A stretch of 64,000 bases of DNA from Pseudofulvimonas gallinarii (GTDB taxonomy: Bacteria > Pseudomonadota > Gammaproteobacteria > Xanthomonadales > UBA2363): positions 1 through 64,000 of the forward strand of contig NZ_SMAF01000013.1 of the NCBI RefSeq assembly GCF_004343305.1, written 5' to 3'. The translations under genes were made by a program, and so were the position numbers. Each line of letters starts with the position of its first letter. Within the stretch, counting starts at the first letter, position 1. Below, piece by piece: positions 31,645-64,000 of the stretch. The notes under the pieces are model-generated. The model saw nothing but the letters and a program-made list of their open reading frames with translations. It ran no database searches and was not told the origin of the DNA.

Positions 31645-32877
31645 ATGAAGACGATCCGCCGCCTGCCTTCCACCCTGGCCCTGGTTTCCGCCTGTCTTTT
31701 CGCCCTGTCCGCCTTCGCCGGGCGCGACCACCTCGACATCAGCGAGGCCGATGCCTGGGCGCTGCATTCGCGTGTCCTCACCCTCGACACGCATGTCGAT
31801 ATCGGCCGCGGTTACGCGACCCACCAGCTCGATCCAGGCGGACTCACGCGCGCGCAGGTCGATCTGCCGAAGATGCGGGCCGGCGACCTCGACGCTGTCT
31901 TCCTCATCGTCTATACCGGCCAGGGACCGCTGACCGCCGAAGGCTATGCCGGCGCCCGTGGGCAGGCCGAGAACAGCTACCAGGCGATCCAGCGCTTCGT
32001 GCGCGCCTATCCCGACCAGGTCGGACTGGCACGCAGCGCCGACGACATCGGATCCATCCACGCCAGCGGTCGTCGTGTCGTCGTCATGGGCATGGAAAAC
32101 GCGTATCCACTGGGTGACAGCGTCGCCGACGTGGGGCTCTGGGCACGACGCGGCGTGCGCTATGTAGGCCTGACGCATATCGGCCACAACCAGTTCGCCG
32201 GCAGCTCGAATCCGCAGGAAAGGCTGGGCGACGGCGAGGACACCGGCCTCAGCGATCTCGGCCGCGAACTGGTCAAGGCGCTCAACGACCATGGCGTGAT
32301 GATCGACGTCTCGCACGTCGGCAAGCGTTCGATGATGGAGGCCACCGCCCTGTCGCGGGCGCCGGTGATCGCCTCGCATTCCGGCGCCCATGGCCACTAT
32401 GCCAATGCCCGCAACCTCGACGATGAACAGCTGCGTGCGATCCGGGACAACGGCGGCGTCGCGCAGATGGTCGCCTTCCGCAGCTACGTGGCCGACCTCA
32501 GCCCGGGCGTGGCCGAAGGCCAGGTGGCACTGCGGGAACGCTTTTTCGCCAATGGCTGGCAATCAGCCACTGAGGCCGACATCGCCGCCTACCAGGCCGA
32601 GCTGGCAAAGCTGCGCAGCGAGCATGGCGACGTCGACGTGCGCCAGTTCGTCGATCACATCGACTACGCGGTGAAGCTGGTCGGCATCGGGCATGTCGGC
32701 ATTGCGTCCGACTTCGATGGCGGTGGCGGTGTGCAGGGCTGGGATGACGCCAGCGAAAGCGTCAACGTCACCTGGGAACTGATGCGCCGCGGCTACAGCG
32801 AAGAACAGATCGCCAAGCTGTGGGGCGGCAATGTCCTGCGCGTGATGCGCGAGGCGGAGCGCCTGCGTCGGCGTTGA
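31645..32877 (+). CDS. Secreted/periplasmic membrane-type dipeptidase
   Basis: Zinc dipeptidase of the renal dipeptidase family (M19). The 410 residues start with a signal peptide (about 1-25, cleavage near SAFA-G). Metal-binding elements are DTHVDIG near residue 53, the Glu in VVMGMENAYPLG, LTHIGHN, IDVSHVG and SHSGAHGHYANARN; the C-terminus has GIASDFDGGGG. GGAG lies before ATG 31645. Expected to cleave dipeptides, possibly with D-amino acids, outside the cytoplasm. Confidence 0.93.
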   Translation: MKTIRRLPSTLALVSACLFALSAFAGRDHLDISEADAWALHSRVLTLDTHVDIGRGYATHQLDPGGLTRAQVDLPKMRAGDLDAVFLIVYTGQGPLTAEGYAGARGQAENSYQAIQRFVRAYPDQVGLARSADDIGSIHASGRRVVVMGMENAYPLGDSVADVGLWARRGVRYVGLTHIGHNQFAGSSNPQERLGDGEDTGLSDLGRELVKALNDHGVMIDVSHVGKRSMMEATALSRAPVIASHSGAHGHYANARNLDDEQLRAIRDNGGVAQMVAFRSYVADLSPGVAEGQVALRERFFANGWQSATEADIAAYQAELAKLRSEHGDVDVRQFVDHIDYAVKLVGIGHVGIASDFDGGGGVQGWDDASESVNVTWELMRRGYSEEQIAKLWGGNVLRVMREAERLRRR

Positions 32878-33273
32878 GCCGGCGTATCCGCGCGGACGCA
32901 GCCGGGGACGCGCCTGGTCTTCTGTGCGTGATGCGCGGGGTACCGCGCCTGATCTTCTGCGCGTGATGCGCGGGGTACGAGACTGGATTCCTGCGCGTGA
33001 TGCGCATATTGGCCGCGCGCCGGCCGGGGCACCCCGCGCGCATCGGTGCTCGACATTGGTCTCCCGAGCGTGACCCGCGATAGCCCGTGCGGGCGCTGCG
33101 GACACCGATGCGCGCATCGACGTGCGACGCGGATGCGCACGCGACGCACGGGACGGAACGTCTGCGAGCGTGGGTTCCACGGATCGAAGCGGCTGCCTGC
33201 CCCGGGACATCGACGCACGCATCGGCCGTGGGGCTTCGGCCCCATCGCATGGATTCGATTCACGGCGCCATGG
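32878..33273. other. GATGCGC-rich intergenic region
   Basis: About 400 bp without a gene. The left part is three 35-bp tandem repeats (32909-33013). The right part (33040-33230) is crowded with degenerate GATGCGC/CGCATC words, including the 12-bp palindrome gatgcgcgcatc near 33107. It separates convergent genes (dipeptidase and RES toxin). Confidence 0.7.
32909..33013. repeat. Three 35-bp tandem repeats
   Basis: Units at 32909-32943, 32944-32978 and 32979-33013. The first two differ at two positions; the third keeps the core tgcgcgtgatgcgc but diverges at the ends. Each unit contains gcgc-gtgat-gcgc, an imperfect dyad. The period and adjacency do not suit a CRISPR array, since there are no spacers. 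Confidence 0.9.
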
Positions 33274-33972
33274 CTAGCGGCGCAGATCGCCTTCCGACAG
33301 CCGCGTGTGCAGCACGCCGGTCTGTCGTTCCACGTCCACATGCCGGGCGACCGGATCGATGCGGTAGGTCAGGTAATGGCTGACCCGCGCGTTGCCGAGT
33401 GGATCCTCGCGGAATGTCACCAGGCAGTCGCCGTCACGCCAGCGCGCCGAGGGATAGAGCAGTCCGGCCTGTCCCTGGCGCGCCAGGTAATGGCCGATCG
33501 ACTGTGTGGCCGTATAGTCGTTGGCGACCAGTTCCGGATGCCCCGTTTCCTTGCCGCGCACATCGACGAACAGGCCGGCGGCGTGCACGAGGTACACGCA
33601 GCGATGACGGATCACCGGCTGTTCGACACCTTCGATGGCCAGCACCTGCTGCAGCGCGTGGTAACAGGTTTCCGCCAGCGCCGTCGCCTCGTCGAGCGCG
33701 CCGTACCAGGCACGTGTCGTGCCATCGGCGAAGCGGCTGCCGACGATGGCATCGGCGGTGAACGGGTACAGCACGGCTTCCGAATACGCCAGGCCACGCT
33801 GGATCACGCCACGGCCGGCGGGACGCACGGCCATTTCCGCCAGCACGGCGGCCGACTGCGCCCCGGTATCCGGCACGAGGTCGTCGAACAGGTTCTGCGA
33901 ATGCCGCAGCGAGGTGATGTTTCGAACTACATCGCCGTCGAACCGCGTCAGCGTATCCAGCAGCGCCATCAC
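33274..33972 (-). CDS. RES-domain toxin
   Basis: RES toxins of RES-Xre modules are known to deplete NAD+ (MbcT, for example). The 232 residues show the family segments RFADGTTRAWYGALDEATALAETCYH and the downstream Glu/Ser residues within a compact single domain. Its ATG overlaps the antitoxin stop as ATGA (33969-33972), the standard antitoxin-first order. No signal peptide. Usual length for the family. Confidence 0.88.
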   Translation of the reverse strand: MMALLDTLTRFDGDVVRNITSLRHSQNLFDDLVPDTGAQSAAVLAEMAVRPAGRGVIQRGLAYSEAVLYPFTADAIVGSRFADGTTRAWYGALDEATALAETCYHALQQVLAIEGVEQPVIRHRCVYLVHAAGLFVDVRGKETGHPELVANDYTATQSIGHYLARQGQAGLLYPSARWRDGDCLVTFREDPLGNARVSHYLTYRIDPVARHVDVERQTGVLHTRLSEGDLRR

Positions 33973-34385
33973 TGGCCCCGCTGGAAATCGACCAGCCGCG
34001 CCACGCGGGCAATGCCGATCAGTCCGCCGGCCAGCATCACGTCCAGTGGCCGTTCGCCGGCCAGTGCGCTGTTGCGGCGCTTCACCCAGCTCCAGCGCAG
34101 CGCTTCGTCTTCGGGAAACAGCAGGCGCAGGCCCTTGTGGATGCCGAGCAGGTAGCCGGCGCGGTCCAGGCAGTCGCGGCTGTCCGGCAGCGGCTGGTCG
34201 CCGCGCTGGTAGGCGCGCACCAGCTTGCGGCTCTCCGGGCTCATACCCAGCAGCAGCATCTGCTCGGCCGTGGTCAGTTCCCAGCGCGCGAACAGCGCCA
34301 CCAGCGTCCGCGCCAGGTCCCGGCGCACCTGCTCGTCGCGCACCGCCAGTTGCGGGGCGGCTTCGGTAAGGGTCGAGGTGGTCAT
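33969..34385 (-). CDS. Xre/MbcA/ParS-type antitoxin of the RES toxin
   Basis: The 138 residues have a helical N-terminal DNA-binding part (about 20-75, WELTTAEQMLLLGMSPESRKLVRAY) and the C-terminal MbcA/ParS antitoxin domain (RAGYLLGIHKGLRLLFPEDEALRWSWVKRRN...PLDVMLAGGLIG). It should neutralise the RES protein and repress the pair. It lies just downstream of tRNA-Leu on the same strand. The predicted promoter puts the transcript start at or next to the ATG. Confidence 0.88.
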   Translation of the reverse strand: MTTSTLTEAAPQLAVRDEQVRRDLARTLVALFARWELTTAEQMLLLGMSPESRKLVRAYQRGDQPLPDSRDCLDRAGYLLGIHKGLRLLFPEDEALRWSWVKRRNSALAGERPLDVMLAGGLIGIARVARLVDFQRGQ

Positions 34386-34493: not shown

Positions 34494-34806
34494 TGGTGCC
34501 CGAGGCCGGACTCGAACCGGCATAACCGCGAGGTCGAGGGATTTTCGTCCCACTTCGGCTTTCGCCGCCAGCGCGAATGCGCTGTTCGTGGGCTGGAGCA
34601 CGCCTTCACCTTGGCCATGTCCGGCTTTAGGTGCCCGCCGTCTGCTCTCTACACCTTCCCGGCTCGCACCGGGCTTGGCTCGGCGTTGGCTCGGATACCA
34701 CAGCATCCAGGGCTTTCACCGACTTTGACGGGCTTCACTCCGGAGGTTTCCCCCCGGAGGCTCAATTACTCAAGTCCCTTGTGTCTACCAATTTCACCAC
34801 TCGGGC
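34494..34806 (-). tRNA. tRNA-Leu(UAA), interrupted by a group I intron
   Basis: 5' exon 34806-34772 (35 nt, from GCCCGAGTGG to AGGGACTT) and 3' exon 34545-34494 (52 nt, from AAAATCCCTCG to CTCGGGCACCA). Joined, they give an 87-nt class II tRNA. The acceptor stem GCCCGAG/CTCGGGC is perfect, the anticodon stem AGGGA/TCCCT is perfect with loop CTTAAAA (anticodon TAA), a long variable arm is present, and the T arm GCCGG-TTCGAGT-CCGGC ends in an encoded CCA. The exons are 226 nt apart. Neither half is usable alone, so the gene depends on splicing. Confidence 0.95.
34546..34771 (-). ncRNA. Group I intron (IC3-like) in the tRNA-Leu(UAA) anticodon loop
   Basis: Inserted between U34 and A35, the site of the cyanobacterial/plastid tRNA-Leu intron. 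The 5' exon ends in U and the intron ends in G, as group I requires. Conserved pieces seen on the minus strand: TAATTGAGCC near the 5' end (with GAG able to pair the exon CUU through a U.G), the catalytic core GGTGTAGAGA (34655-34646) with AGACGG and GGCACCTAA (34635-34627), a P2-like hairpin CTCCGG/CCGGAG, a hairpin CCCGG-TGCGAG-CCGGG, a P9-like hairpin CAGCGC-ATTC-GCGCTG, and a GAAA tetraloop stem CGGC-GAAA-GCCG. It has no ORF. At 226 nt it is close to the 249-nt Anabaena intron. Self-splicing is inferred. Confidence 0.92.
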
Positions 34807-34880: not shown

Positions 34881-35555
34881 CTAGACCACATGCGTCGTCA
34901 GGACCTCCTCCCCCAGCATGTCGGTGATCTTTACCGCAACGGTCGCCCCTCCCTCTGGTACGTCCAGCGTGTACTCGCCGGCCACGAAGTCGGCCTTGCG
35001 GGCGGGCACGTCGGCGTGGACCACGTTGAACACGACGCCGTCGTAATCGGTGTCGATCATCACGCTGTCTACCATGGTACGCCAGTCGGTGACCCTGGCT
35101 TGGACCACGCCGGACTGAGCTATGACAACGCCTTGGCCGAGACTGTCAACGGGCAGCGTGCAGTCCTGGTGCCACTCGGCGGTGCGCGCGCGCATGAAGT
35201 CGCGGGTCGCCTGGTAGATGGTGAAGGTCGGGTCCAGGGTGAAGTCCAGGGCGATCAGCTCGTCGCCCACCGCGTTCCACTTATCGCTGCCCGCGCGGCC
35301 GCCTGCGCCCACAGCCGGCTGGCGTTCTAGCGGGTGCTCCGAACGAATGTGCCGACCCCTTGGTCACCCGACCTCGCGATCCAGGCTGCGGCCAACACCA
35401 ATAGCCTGCTGCGGGATACGCAGGAATGGCGGCCTTCCGGCTTCACGGCCAGAGAGCCAGTCCAGGATCTCGGCTATCGCGGGATACTGCTCATGGGAAT
35501 AGCCGGAGTCACGCCAGCGAGCCAATTTTTCGGCGATCAGTTGAGGCAGTTGCAT
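34881..35555 (-). pseudogene. Fused remnant of a restriction-modification system
   Basis: One continuous frame broken only by a TGA at 35364-35366. Before the stop, MQLPQLIAEKLARWRDSG...QYPAIAEILDW resembles, from memory, the N-terminus of DEAD/DEAH helicases of type III-like restriction systems. After it, HIRSEHPLERQPAVGAGG and SDKWNAVGDELIALDF... to TVAVKITDMLGEEVL resembles the C-terminus of an adenine-specific methyltransferase from such loci. A large internal deletion joining two genes (or two ends) in frame best explains it. It follows vapC by 4 bp. No enzymatic core remains. Confidence 0.55.
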
Positions 35556-35559
35556 GCAG

Positions 35560-35976
35560 TCAGCGTCCTGCTTTGGGAGAGACAAGTTCCAGCTTCGGAT
35601 AGTAGGTGCGATACCGGCTGGCGTCCCGTGTCAGCAGCACCATGCCCTCTACGGCGGCATGCGCACCGATATAGAAATCCGGCAGCGGTGAGGTGCGGAC
35701 ACCCCTGGCCTGTCGGTATCGCAAGAAAGACTTGCCGGCAAGGAAGCCTGCCTCCCAGGGCAGCTCCAGACGAGTGAAAGTATCAAGGGACAGAGCCTCG
35801 TCCAGTTCCTCGATACGTTCGAACCCTACCGAGACTTCGGCATAAATGAGGGCGTTGATGCACAGTTCGGCTTCGGCAGCACAAGCCTCCAGATGGCCGG
35901 CTGACCAGTCATACCACGTTGGATCCTCTGTCAGCACATCCAGCAGGACGTTGGCGTCCACAAGCACACGTTTCAC
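35560..35976 (-). CDS. vapC: PIN-domain toxin (VapC-like ribonuclease)
   Basis: The 138 residues have the PIN acidic residues in order: Asp in MKRVLVDANVLLDVLTED, Glu in INALIYAEVSVGFE, and Asp in SPLPDFYIGAHAAVEGMVLLTRDASRYRTYYP. The RDxxRYRTYYP ending is typical of VapC toxins. Expected to cleave RNA when freed from the antitoxin. Starts 6 bp after the antitoxin stop. Confidence 0.92.
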   Translation of the reverse strand: MKRVLVDANVLLDVLTEDPTWYDWSAGHLEACAAEAELCINALIYAEVSVGFERIEELDEALSLDTFTRLELPWEAGFLAGKSFLRYRQARGVRTSPLPDFYIGAHAAVEGMVLLTRDASRYRTYYPKLELVSPKAGR

Positions 35977-35982
35977 GATGCT

Positions 35983-36231
35983 TCATTCGCCACGGGTCAG
36001 TTGCATGATTTCATCGGTGCTCATGCCGGCGGTTGCACGACCACGCAAGCGGGCGGCCAGCCCGCCGCGACGGCTCTTGGCAGAACGGGCCAAGGTAGTG
36101 TCCGCCTCCCGCAAAGCCGCCACACGCACGAAGGTGGCCACCGGCAATCCCTGTAATTGGGCAGCACGGCGCAGGCGATCCTTGTCCTCGACGCTTAGGC
36201 GCAAGTCGAGACGGTCAGCAGCTACAGTCAT
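35983..36231 (-). CDS. vapB: Antitoxin with RHH/DUF1778-like N-terminus and VapB-like tail
   Basis: The 82 residues started at ATG 36231 have a strong GGAGG 7 nt upstream; a longer frame to 36273 has none. The N-terminal part (RLDLRLSVEDKDRLRRAAQLQGLPVATFV) is ribbon-helix-helix of the DUF1778 kind, normally paired with GNAT toxins. The C-terminus (GMSTDEIMQLTRGE) is the usual VapB toxin-binding tail. It should repress its own operon through the palindrome just upstream. Confidence 0.85.
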   Translation of the reverse strand: MTVAADRLDLRLSVEDKDRLRRAAQLQGLPVATFVRVAALREADTTLARSAKSRRGGLAARLRGRATAGMSTDEIMQLTRGE

Positions 36232-61790: not shown

Positions 61791-64000
61791 ATGACCATCC
61801 GCCAGTTATCAATACGAACACCGGTCCGGCCGGCCCAGCCGCGCAACGGACAGACTCCGCAACGCACCCGGCCAGAGCTTGCGCGGAAGCTGGCCACGCT
61901 GTTCGCCGGCTTCCTGTGCCCGGTGCTTGCCGCCGCCGGGCTACAGGACCCGGCCAAGTCGCTGCCGCCCTTCGCGCCCAGCGCCGACATTCCCTGTGAC
62001 GGAACCCCCTTCGGCTACCAGCTCACCCTGGGTCGCGACGCCGAGATGGTGACGCTGGTGCCGTACAACCAGGGCGCCGCCAACGGGGACCTGGGCCGGC
62101 TCCGCGAATGGGCCCTGGAGCGCCCCCCCGGCAACAACGATGCGCCACCCTTCCCGGTCATGGACACGATCTGGACCGTCCCGCACTTCGCCGGCACCGA
62201 CCTGATGCATGCCCTGCGGACCGACCTCAATGGCGACGGCACTGACGAGGTCTGGGTCGCCGCCGGCTGGCCTGCCGGCAGCAACCACTCGATGGTCCGG
62301 ATCGGCCAGTTCCAGCGCACCAGTCCCGACTCGAACCAGATCGACCTGGCATTTGCCAATGAACTGGGTACCTTCAGTGGAGGCCAGACCCAGTTTTCCA
62401 ACCAGTTCGAGTTCGCCACCGGAAACGTCCTCGGCCACGACGACGGCATCCGGGACCTGGTGATGATGACGCGCATGCGCAACAACAACCATGTCCGCAT
62501 TTCCGTTGCACCGGGCCGCGCCGACGGCGGTCTTGAGCCAGGCGGATGGCGGGTATGGACCTTCGTGCCGCCAACCTCACAAGTGGGCCAGGTGGGAATC
62601 GCCGTCGGCGACTTCCTGCTCAAGGGGCGTGACCAGATCGTCCTGGTCACGGAAACCGACCATGGCGGAAACGGCCTGAACCGCAAGCTCAATTACCATT
62701 TCCTGCAGGCGCAGGACGGCAGCCCCGACCTTGAGGTGCAGACGTTCACCACGCCTGTCAGCAACATCTTCGGCCACAGCAACGGCGACGACACCATCAG
62801 CAATACCGGCATCCGCAAGATGACGGTGGATGCCGGCGACGTGGCGGGAAGCGCGGCGGCGGAGCTGGTCATCCATATGGAGTACCTGCCGCAGGGATCC
62901 GATGGCAACGTAGTTGGACAGCGGGTCCACCACTTCCGGTACGTCCGCAACGCCAATGGCGACATCACCGGCATCGAAATGGCGCGCCCGGCCGGTGCAC
63001 CGGCCCACGTGGACTACGACTACAGCCATATCGTCCGCACCCAGCATTCGACCTGGGGAGACTGGGCTGTCGCCGTGGGCAACGTCGACCATGACCCGAA
63101 GGCCGAAATCGTATTCACCCATGACGTGGTCCGCCAGGACACGCACTTCCTCGACACCAGTGTCTACAAGGTCGACTACCAGTTGACGGCGGCGTTCCGG
63201 TACTGGCGCAGCGGAAGGTCCGTCCGGTTTACGGACATCTCCGTGGGTGGTGGACCGGGCCCGTTCCCCTATTACGGGGGCAGCCGCTGGACATTCGGCG
63301 ACGGCAATTCGTCCGACGACATCAATCCGGTGCACACATTCCAGAGCAATGGCGCGCGCACCGTGAGGCTCAACATCCAGCAGGACTGGAACGGAACCAA
63401 TTCCTACTCTTACAAGGAGTTGACGATCAACATCGACGCCGACGCCAATGAAGGTGGTGGTGAACTCGATCCGGAACAGCTGCTGTTCCAGATCCAGAGG
63501 GATCCCGTGTACCGGGCGACGTACGCGCGGGACGAGAACAATTCGTCCCGGTTCAACCATGTCCATGTGTCGGTCGATGACATGAACCGCGACGGCATCC
63601 CCGAGATCATGTCGGTGGCCAGTTATGACCAGACCAGCTTCAGCCCCTCCGGCATGGTGCACTCGATCTGGAACCTGCAGAACGACAACAGCCTGGGACT
63701 GGTCCTGCAAGGCGAGCACCGCTTCGAATACGCCAGTGGCACGTACTCCAACAGTGGCGTGCACAAGGTCTTCGCACTCGGAGCGGATCTGGACGGCGAT
63801 TCGGTCTTTGCGGAAGTGGGCACCGACTGTCGCCGCGTCGAAGAAACACAGGCGCGCAATCTGATCTGGATTCCGCCCCACTTCGAACGCCTGCAGGACG
63901 GCGCGTCGCGCTCGGCCAGCATCGGACGCACCACCGGTGGCGGCAGCTCGGTCGAAAGCCGGTACGGCACCTTCACCTCGCACGACGTTTCCGCCTACGT
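61791..64000 (+). CDS. Large secreted VCBS/FG-GAP and PKD-domain protein (3' end beyond window)
   Basis: An open frame from ATG 61791 to the window end, at least 736 residues. The N-terminus is long, with a hydrophobic stretch LATLFAGFLCPVLAAAG near 38-55 that should act as signal peptide. Integrin-like calcium-binding repeats are seen at TDLNGDGTDEVWVAAG and VDDMNRDGIPEIMSVA. A PKD-type domain (SVRFTDISVG...SRWTFGDGNSSDDINPVHTFQSNGARTVRLNI) lies near residues 475-545. Such proteins are secreted and may bind polymers or surfaces. No enzymatic domain is seen in the part present. The long open frame on the opposite strand is a shadow. Confidence 0.85.
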   Translation, partial: MTIRQLSIRTPVRPAQPRNGQTPQRTRPELARKLATLFAGFLCPVLAAAGLQDPAKSLPPFAPSADIPCDGTPFGYQLTLGRDAEMVTLVPYNQGAANGDLGRLREWALERPPGNNDAPPFPVMDTIWTVPHFAGTDLMHALRTDLNGDGTDEVWVAAGWPAGSNHSMVRIGQFQRTSPDSNQIDLAFANELGTFSGGQTQFSNQFEFATGNVLGHDDGIRDLVMMTRMRNNNHVRISVAPGRADGGLEPGGWRVWTFVPPTSQVGQVGIAVGDFLLKGRDQIVLVTETDHGGNGLNRKLNYHFLQAQDGSPDLEVQTFTTPVSNIFGHSNGDDTISNTGIRKMTVDAGDVAGSAAAELVIHMEYLPQGSDGNVVGQRVHHFRYVRNANGDITGIEMARPAGAPAHVDYDYSHIVRTQHSTWGDWAVAVGNVDHDPKAEIVFTHDVVRQDTHFLDTSVYKVDYQLTAAFRYWRSGRSVRFTDISVGGGPGPFPYYGGSRWTFGDGNSSDDINPVHTFQSNGARTVRLNIQQDWNGTNSYSYKELTINIDADANEGGGELDPEQLLFQIQRDPVYRATYARDENNSSRFNHVHVSVDDMNRDGIPEIMSVASYDQTSFSPSGMVHSIWNLQNDNSLGLVLQGEHRFEYASGTYSNSGVHKVFALGADLDGDSVFAEVGTDCRRVEETQARNLIWIPPHFERLQDGASRSASIGRTTGGGSSVESRYGTFTSHDVSAY

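Follow-up and report, generated by a model that had tools for sequence, protein, structure and literature searches.

An intron-bearing tRNA-Leu(UAA) gene in Pseudofulvimonas gallinarii and its kin on integrative elements

The interrupted tRNA-Leu(UAA) gene and its intron

The window, as we call the whole stretch of 64,000 nucleotides of Pseudofulvimonas gallinarii that was analysed, carries on its minus strand, at 34494-34806, a tRNA-Leu(UAA) gene interrupted between U34 and A35 by a 226-nt insert. The gene was found by ARAGORN with introns allowed, and the mature tRNA has a predicted length of 87 nt. The initial annotation had described two minus-strand tRNA-Leu halves, 226 nt apart, that join as a tRNA-Leu(UAA), and both the ARAGORN result and the perfect fold of the spliced exons bear this out. 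The coordinates also agree with the break that it had placed between U34 and A35, with U as the last base of exon 1 and G as the last base of the intron. The warning that annotation could miss such a gene was justified: it was missed by ARAGORN with default settings and by the Rfam tRNA model. The possibility that the two halves represent attachment sites of one element was considered and rejected. The parts of the gene and of the intron are listed below.

34772..34806, minus strand: exon 1 (5' half) of tRNA-Leu(UAA), last base U34 (ARAGORN with introns; sequence GCCCGAGTGGTGAAATTGGTAGACACAAGGGACTT)
34546..34771, minus strand: group I intron, 226 nt, between U34 and A35; first base 34771, terminal G 34546 (Rfam RF00028, structure and covariation, own covariance model)
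34761..34765, minus strand: internal guide sequence UUGAG; P1 is formed with CUU of exon 1 and GA of the intron, with U.G at the 5' splice site (structure, alignment)
34738..34759, minus strand: P2, 9 bp, GAAA tetraloop (double changes in 8 of 9 pairs)
34727..34733, minus strand: P3, 5' strand, partner 34633-34639 (96% of cells paired)
34680..34722, minus strand: P4-P5-P5a domain, P4 strands 34717-34722 and 34680-34685 (structure, alignment)
34653..34679, minus strand: P6 and P6a (structure, alignment)
34643..34647, minus strand: P7, 5' strand GAGCA, partner UGCUC at 34596-34600 (100% of cells paired, double changes in three pairs)
34633..34639, minus strand: P3, 3' strand (structure, alignment)
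34608..34632, minus strand: P8 (structure, alignment)
34549..34592, minus strand: P9 three-way junction, with the P9 stem, a variable hairpin and a GAAA-capped hairpin (structure, alignment)
34494..34545, minus strand: exon 2 (3' half) of tRNA-Leu(UAA), CCA encoded (ARAGORN; sequence AAAATCCCTCGACCTCGCGGTTATGCCGGTTCGAGTCCGGCCTCGGGCACCA)

To define the structure, the intron was aligned with 35 relatives (alignment A1, 36 sequences) and helices P1 to P9, including the P3/P7 pseudoknot, were drawn by hand. Paired cells amounted to 93.8% in this alignment versus 84.8% in shuffles, and 37 pairs showed changes on both sides, with 230 double-change cells. None of 500 shuffles matched the real alignment on any of five measures, and when the partner strand was shifted by one base, pairing fell to 41-47%. 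In the core, P3 was paired in 96% of the cells, P4 in 98%, and both P6 and P7, the latter being the helix that harbours the guanosine-binding site, in 100%. It should be noted that the relatives were mostly gathered through a 28-nt core, so that its conservation does not count as independent evidence; the structure is supported independently by the covariation of P2, P5a, P6a and the P9 hairpin. The core words pointed out in the initial annotation turned out to be the P6/J6-7, P7/P3 and P3/P8 sequences, and in the drawn structure GAAA loops cap two hairpins, P2 and the inner P9 hairpin, without a P5abc extension.

The insert at 34546-34771 is a group I intron, as had been proposed: it has the P3-P8 core with the P3/P7 pseudoknot, the U.G wobble in P1 and the terminal G, and its helices covary. 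The Rfam model Intron_gpI (RF00028) matched it end to end, though its 28.2 bits (E 2.8e-5) fall short of the gathering score, which is 50, and this was the sole such match in the genome. Since the helices and their covariation are present, the sub-threshold score was treated as a limit of sensitivity; our own covariance model of the intron core (R1) gave the window intron 142.6 bits. The anatomy fits the IC3 subgroup, and it likewise fits a kinship to the cyanobacterial and plastid intron.

As judged from this structure, the intron is almost certainly spliced in P. gallinarii. Guanosine would attack after U34, at the U.G pair of P1, and exon 1 would then be ligated to A35, by which the anticodon loop would be restored and the 226-nt intron lost. 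The draft genome (G000; 3.45 Mb in 57 contigs, 100% complete by the estimate of the tool) contains tRNA-Leu genes with CAA, CAG, GAG and UAG anticodons, all intronless, and a search across its 3.45 Mb for a second tRNA-Leu(UAA), which would have marked the halves as debris, found none. In standard decoding UUA is read by tRNA-Leu(UAA) only, and tRNA-Leu(CAA) cannot read it. Because no other copy was found for this codon, splicing should be essential, and the description of the gene as essential-looking holds: it is the only tRNA-Leu(UAA) of the genome and the only expected reader of UUA. Demand for this codon is low; UUA was the rarest codon in selected ORFs of the window (2 of 14,474), in a count biased downwards by the choice of ORFs with high GC3.

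Spread of the intron family and origin of the window gene

A scan of bacterial and archaeal genomes with the 28-nt core matched at least 117 contigs, and more than 100 contigs of beta- and gammaproteobacteria share the intron site, the host gene being tRNA-Leu(UAA) or tRNA-Leu(CAA). From the contigs among the matches listed, four related loci and the window, 119 introns were extracted, every one inserted between positions 34 and 35, with tRNA-Leu(UAA) as the host gene in 84 cases and tRNA-Leu(CAA) in 35. Exon 1 ends in U in all 84 UAA genes, and all 119 introns end in G. In the 35 CAA genes (e.g. L079, L105, L178) the P1 pair at the 5' splice site is always C-G instead of U.G, which is unusual for group I introns. 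The core covariance model found matches in 38 of 299 genomes within the order and in 56 of 369 within the class; its high-scoring matches lay mainly in tRNA-Leu, and weaker ones lay in genes that ARAGORN named tRNA-Gln(CUG), Arg(CCG), Arg(UCU), Arg(CCU), Phe and Met/Ile(CAU). Members of this intron family were found in Rhodanobacteraceae, Lysobacteraceae and other beta- and gammaproteobacteria. An intron of this type is not unusual in the order, and the initial impression of its rarity at this site was not sustained; in addition, an interrupted tRNA-Leu(UAA) had already been described in Beggiatoa and Thiomargarita (PMC4853749).

Several other intron arrangements were observed in this survey. 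Rhodanobacter thiooxydans LCS2 has an intron in both tRNA-Leu(UAA) and tRNA-Leu(CAA) (L070, L178), in genome G030 a CAU tRNA is interrupted as well as Leu(UAA) and Leu(CAA), and at one locus (L148, 901-1629) a pair of intron matches is separated by about 600 nt. A second widespread set of tRNA introns consists of the group I introns that this order and class carry in tRNA-Gln(CUG) and tRNA-Arg(CCG) (L210-L222, L260-L264), where the exon ends in C by ARAGORN placement. The relatives come partly from draft and metagenome-derived contigs, some of them probably mislabelled, and the intron-bearing tRNAs on contigs labelled Mycobacterium, Chloroflexi and Sphingobium (L113, L115, L154) are probably misbinned or contaminant.

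Plasmid and viral records also contained such genes. The plasmid pCTX-M3 (L298, record 61823-62168) carries a tRNA-Leu(UAA) whose group I intron occupies the same site, and a gene of this type, situated near aac(3)-IId, IS26 and ISCfr1, recurs in about 1,300 further plasmid records; it is at least 99% identical among nearly all of these records and about 68% identical to the window gene, and it was unannotated in the records inspected. A phage-like contig (IMGVR_UViG_3300035037_000204; L296, 5401-7261) has a tRNA array in which the core model placed three group I introns, with tRNA-Arg(UCU) and tRNA-Leu(UAA) among the hosts. According to a 2014 review, phage introns were known only from protein genes. 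Phage records as the vehicle were rejected, with three partial low-identity matches only; the matches on viral contigs were mostly intact tRNA genes resembling the Achromobacter copies, possibly from host flanks.

Regarding the origin of the window gene, an intronless tRNA-Leu(UAA) closes a Gly(GCC)-Cys(GCA)-Leu(UAA) cluster in the congeners G001 and G002. At the corresponding place in the genome that holds the window, Gly and Cys are followed by an apparent urocanate hydratase gene, without Leu. The spliced window tRNA shares 78% identity with the tRNA-Leu(UAA) of the congeners, as against 95-97% with several intron-bearing tRNAs from other families. Of the 14 distinct intron-bearing tRNA-Leu(UAA) genes of the order, 12 share one exon haplotype, which none of the 35 intronless genes has (Fisher 1e-9), and these 12 genes, from three families, form one clade (96/98). 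The tree of intron cores disregards taxonomy, with few forks well supported and with four changes of UAA/CAA label, and the core nearest to that of the window belongs to Stutzerimonas, at 92% identity. Exon and intron move as one unit. As far as gene order and exon identity tell, the comparison shows that the window gene replaced the native intronless tRNA-Leu(UAA) gene of the Gly-Cys-Leu cluster. The proposal that a self-splicing intron had been acquired by the tRNA gene can be kept in part: horizontal acquisition is supported, and what was acquired is not the intron alone but the complete tRNA gene, with its exon haplotype as well as its intron.

The stretch that holds the tRNA gene had no syntenic counterpart in the congeners; the adjoining lexA-imuB genes do have congener synteny. 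A RES-Xre toxin-antitoxin pair and a PIN-domain toxin gene flank the tRNA gene.

33274-34385, minus strand: RES-Xre toxin-antitoxin pair, downstream of the tRNA gene
35560-36231, minus strand: PIN-domain toxin and likely antitoxin, upstream of the tRNA gene

Two repeats were observed nearby. A 178-bp stretch (35152-35328) that opens an unassigned 143-aa ORF recurs in the same genome (G000:C5, 85%) and in the congener G001 (92%), and short tandem repeats around TGCGCGTGATGCGC (32836-33012) lie at and past the 3' end of the dipeptidase gene.

Integrative elements in relatives and the status of the window copy

In two of the 15 intron-bearing genomes of the order that were checked (G059 and G264), the 3' half of a truncated native tRNA-Leu(UAA) adjoins a tyrosine integrase gene, and the intron-bearing tRNA is preceded, at a distance of about 160 nt, by the truncated 5' half, which ends in GACTTAAAATC. 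The native halves, whose common core is CTTAAAATC, join as a perfect intronless tRNA-Leu(UAA). In G264 the halves are on different contigs; in G059 they lie 43.7 kb apart, on either side of an element whose cargo includes the integrase, a DUF3363/relaxase-like protein, conjugation proteins of the TraG, TrbE, TrbI and CagX types and a chromate transporter. Judging by this gene content, the G059 element is conjugative. At its left end a Gabija pair, GajA and GajB, directly adjoins the intron-bearing tRNA (L358, 11061-14633). A third genome, G110, presents the same organization for the CAA isoacceptor: a 5' half is followed by an intron-bearing tRNA-Leu(CAA) and, 24 kb downstream, by an integrase, 59% identical to that of G059, and the 3' half; by inspection, the two halves complete each other. 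Thus, in the three genomes both broken halves, an integrase and an intron-bearing replacement are found together.

This organization was then surveyed in 145 distinct loci, in the 400 nt upstream of the intron-bearing gene and with a score threshold of 40, the best score in shuffled sequence being 25. A truncated 5' half of a host tRNA-Leu with a readable anticodon was present at 41 loci, mostly 147-200 nt upstream, and the left-end spacer, between this half and the intron-bearing gene, is conserved. The anticodon of the broken half equals that of the intron-bearing gene in all 41 cases (29 UAA, 12 CAA; Fisher 1e-10), which include close relatives and are not 41 independent events. As read from this architecture, the relatives show integrative elements that break tRNA-Leu in the anticodon loop and bring an intron-bearing replacement.

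From these data the following mechanism can be proposed. The tyrosine integrase would target the anticodon loop of tRNA-Leu(UAA) or tRNA-Leu(CAA), at the core CTTAAAATC or CTCAAAA, and integration would wreck the host gene, with a left junction that does not restore the tRNA. Because of this unrestored junction, the element would have to bring a complete gene of the same isoacceptor, which is the intron-bearing one placed near one end of the element. The intron, being inserted between U34 and A35, would split the integration core, so that the supplied copy would have no intact integration site. That the intron serves as a shield against integration is, on this reading of the architecture, about as likely as not.

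At the window gene itself, the search for a truncated host half upstream gave none (score 17, within noise), neither the left-end spacer at the gene nor an integrase on its contig was found, and the window and its relatives share no flanks past the tRNA ends. Since the half, the spacer, the integrase and shared flanks are absent, the case for element descent of this copy is made through kinship only, from which we consider such descent fairly likely. The window copy appears to be a solitary, domesticated relic: the element would be gone and the replacement tRNA would now be resident. Many Achromobacter carry the intron-bearing gene without a broken half upstream, and their copies look similarly domesticated.

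Other explanations have to be weighed against this one. Group I introns are able to move by reverse splicing or homing, and the intron could have entered a resident tRNA-Leu(UAA) in this way, by reverse splicing or with an endonuclease, and with no mobile element involved. Such mobility is established for these introns, and since the UAA and CAA introns are close kin, the intron must have changed host gene at least once, in line with the four label changes in the core tree. For the window gene this route is nevertheless unlikely, as the flanking exons are likewise of foreign type (78% identical to those of the congeners, and as much as 97% identical to those of intron-bearing genes from other families), the native locus stands empty rather than interrupted, and an intron of 226 nt is too small for the ORF of a homing endonuclease. 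Similarly improbable is the differential loss of ancient paralogues from an ancestor in which an intronless tRNA-Leu(UAA) coexisted with an intron-bearing one. Both gene types are indeed scattered across the order, but no intact intronless tRNA-Leu(UAA) was found beside the intron-bearing gene in any of the 15 genomes checked, the similarity of the introns ignores taxonomy, as in the case of the Stutzerimonas core, and the element-borne copies beside broken host genes let replacement be seen directly. Finally, that the locus is debris of a degenerate, unspliced intron or tRNA, with UUA read by another tRNA, finds some backing in the rarity of UUA and in the Rfam score under the cut-off, and is very improbable given that the catalytic helices are all intact and covarying, the terminal G and the U.G pair of P1 are kept, the joined exons give a perfect tRNA and the genome yielded no other tRNA-Leu(UAA).

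We therefore return to the reading by replacement. With good confidence, the window holds a functional, single-copy, intron-bearing tRNA-Leu(UAA) gene of foreign origin that replaced the native gene and that belongs to a kind carried by elements. The combined reading goes further and is modestly favoured: an element would destroy a tRNA-Leu and supply an intron-shielded replacement, which would leave the host alive and dependent on the element and the gene no longer open to targeting, with the window showing a domesticated end point. It would give bacterial tRNA introns a plausible job, and it would account both for the persistence of an intron in a tRNA gene without a second copy and for possible annotations of such genomes as lacking tRNA-Leu(UAA). 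On the basis of the open-licence literature, this element strategy is provisionally regarded as previously undescribed.

Comparison with known systems

Elements of the kind found in G059 resemble the integrative and conjugative elements that target tRNA genes in their tyrosine integrase, in their integration into a tRNA gene and in their conjugation genes. A classical element of this class restores the host tRNA by bringing a copy of the missing part. Here, in contrast, the host gene remains disrupted, and what the element supplies is an entire intron-bearing tRNA gene.

Among the closest parallels to the window intron is the group I intron of the cyanobacterial and plastid tRNA-Leu(UAA), which is small, ORF-less and located in the anticodon loop, and which shares with it the host tRNA and the insertion between U34 and A35. 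We know of no described link in cyanobacteria to integrative elements that break the same tRNA. The title of Rudi et al. 2002, as given in a reference list (PMC3984707), refers to horizontal transfer of the cyanobacterial intron and to recombination of the whole tRNA locus. The host phylum is different from that of the window, and the likeness rests on anatomy and not on aligned sequences. The Azoarcus intron has GAAA tetraloops and core words that we take to be like those of the window intron. This intron of tRNA-Ile(CAU), the related IC3 introns and those of tRNA-Ile2 in Acidovorax and Burkholderia (PMC8450103) are, like that of the window, small proteobacterial group I introns of the anticodon loop. 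They reside in another tRNA, at another position, and are not known to accompany a tRNA replacement. In Beggiatoa and Thiomargarita, putative group I introns have been described in tRNA-Leu(TAA) and tRNA-Arg(TCT), so that the former presents the same combination of a gammaproteobacterial tRNA-Leu(UAA) with a group I intron; these bacteria belong to a different order, and the excerpted text of the paper gives the tRNA introns without structure, subgroup or link to an element (PMC4853749).

The idea of the intron as a block to integration was put forward for archaeal tRNA introns by Randau and Soll in 2008, as summarised in PMC4090602, and is alike in that an intron in the anticodon loop ruins the attachment site. 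The archaeal introns are spliced by proteins and lie in a resident gene, whereas the bacterial intron is a ribozyme and its tRNA gene is borne by the integrating element itself. The archaeal proposal is hard to test in archaea. In the bacteria described here, dozens of genomes present the attacker next to its broken target and the intron-bearing replacement, and the isoacceptor matches in every case; the integration-block idea therefore becomes testable with one integrase and two substrates.
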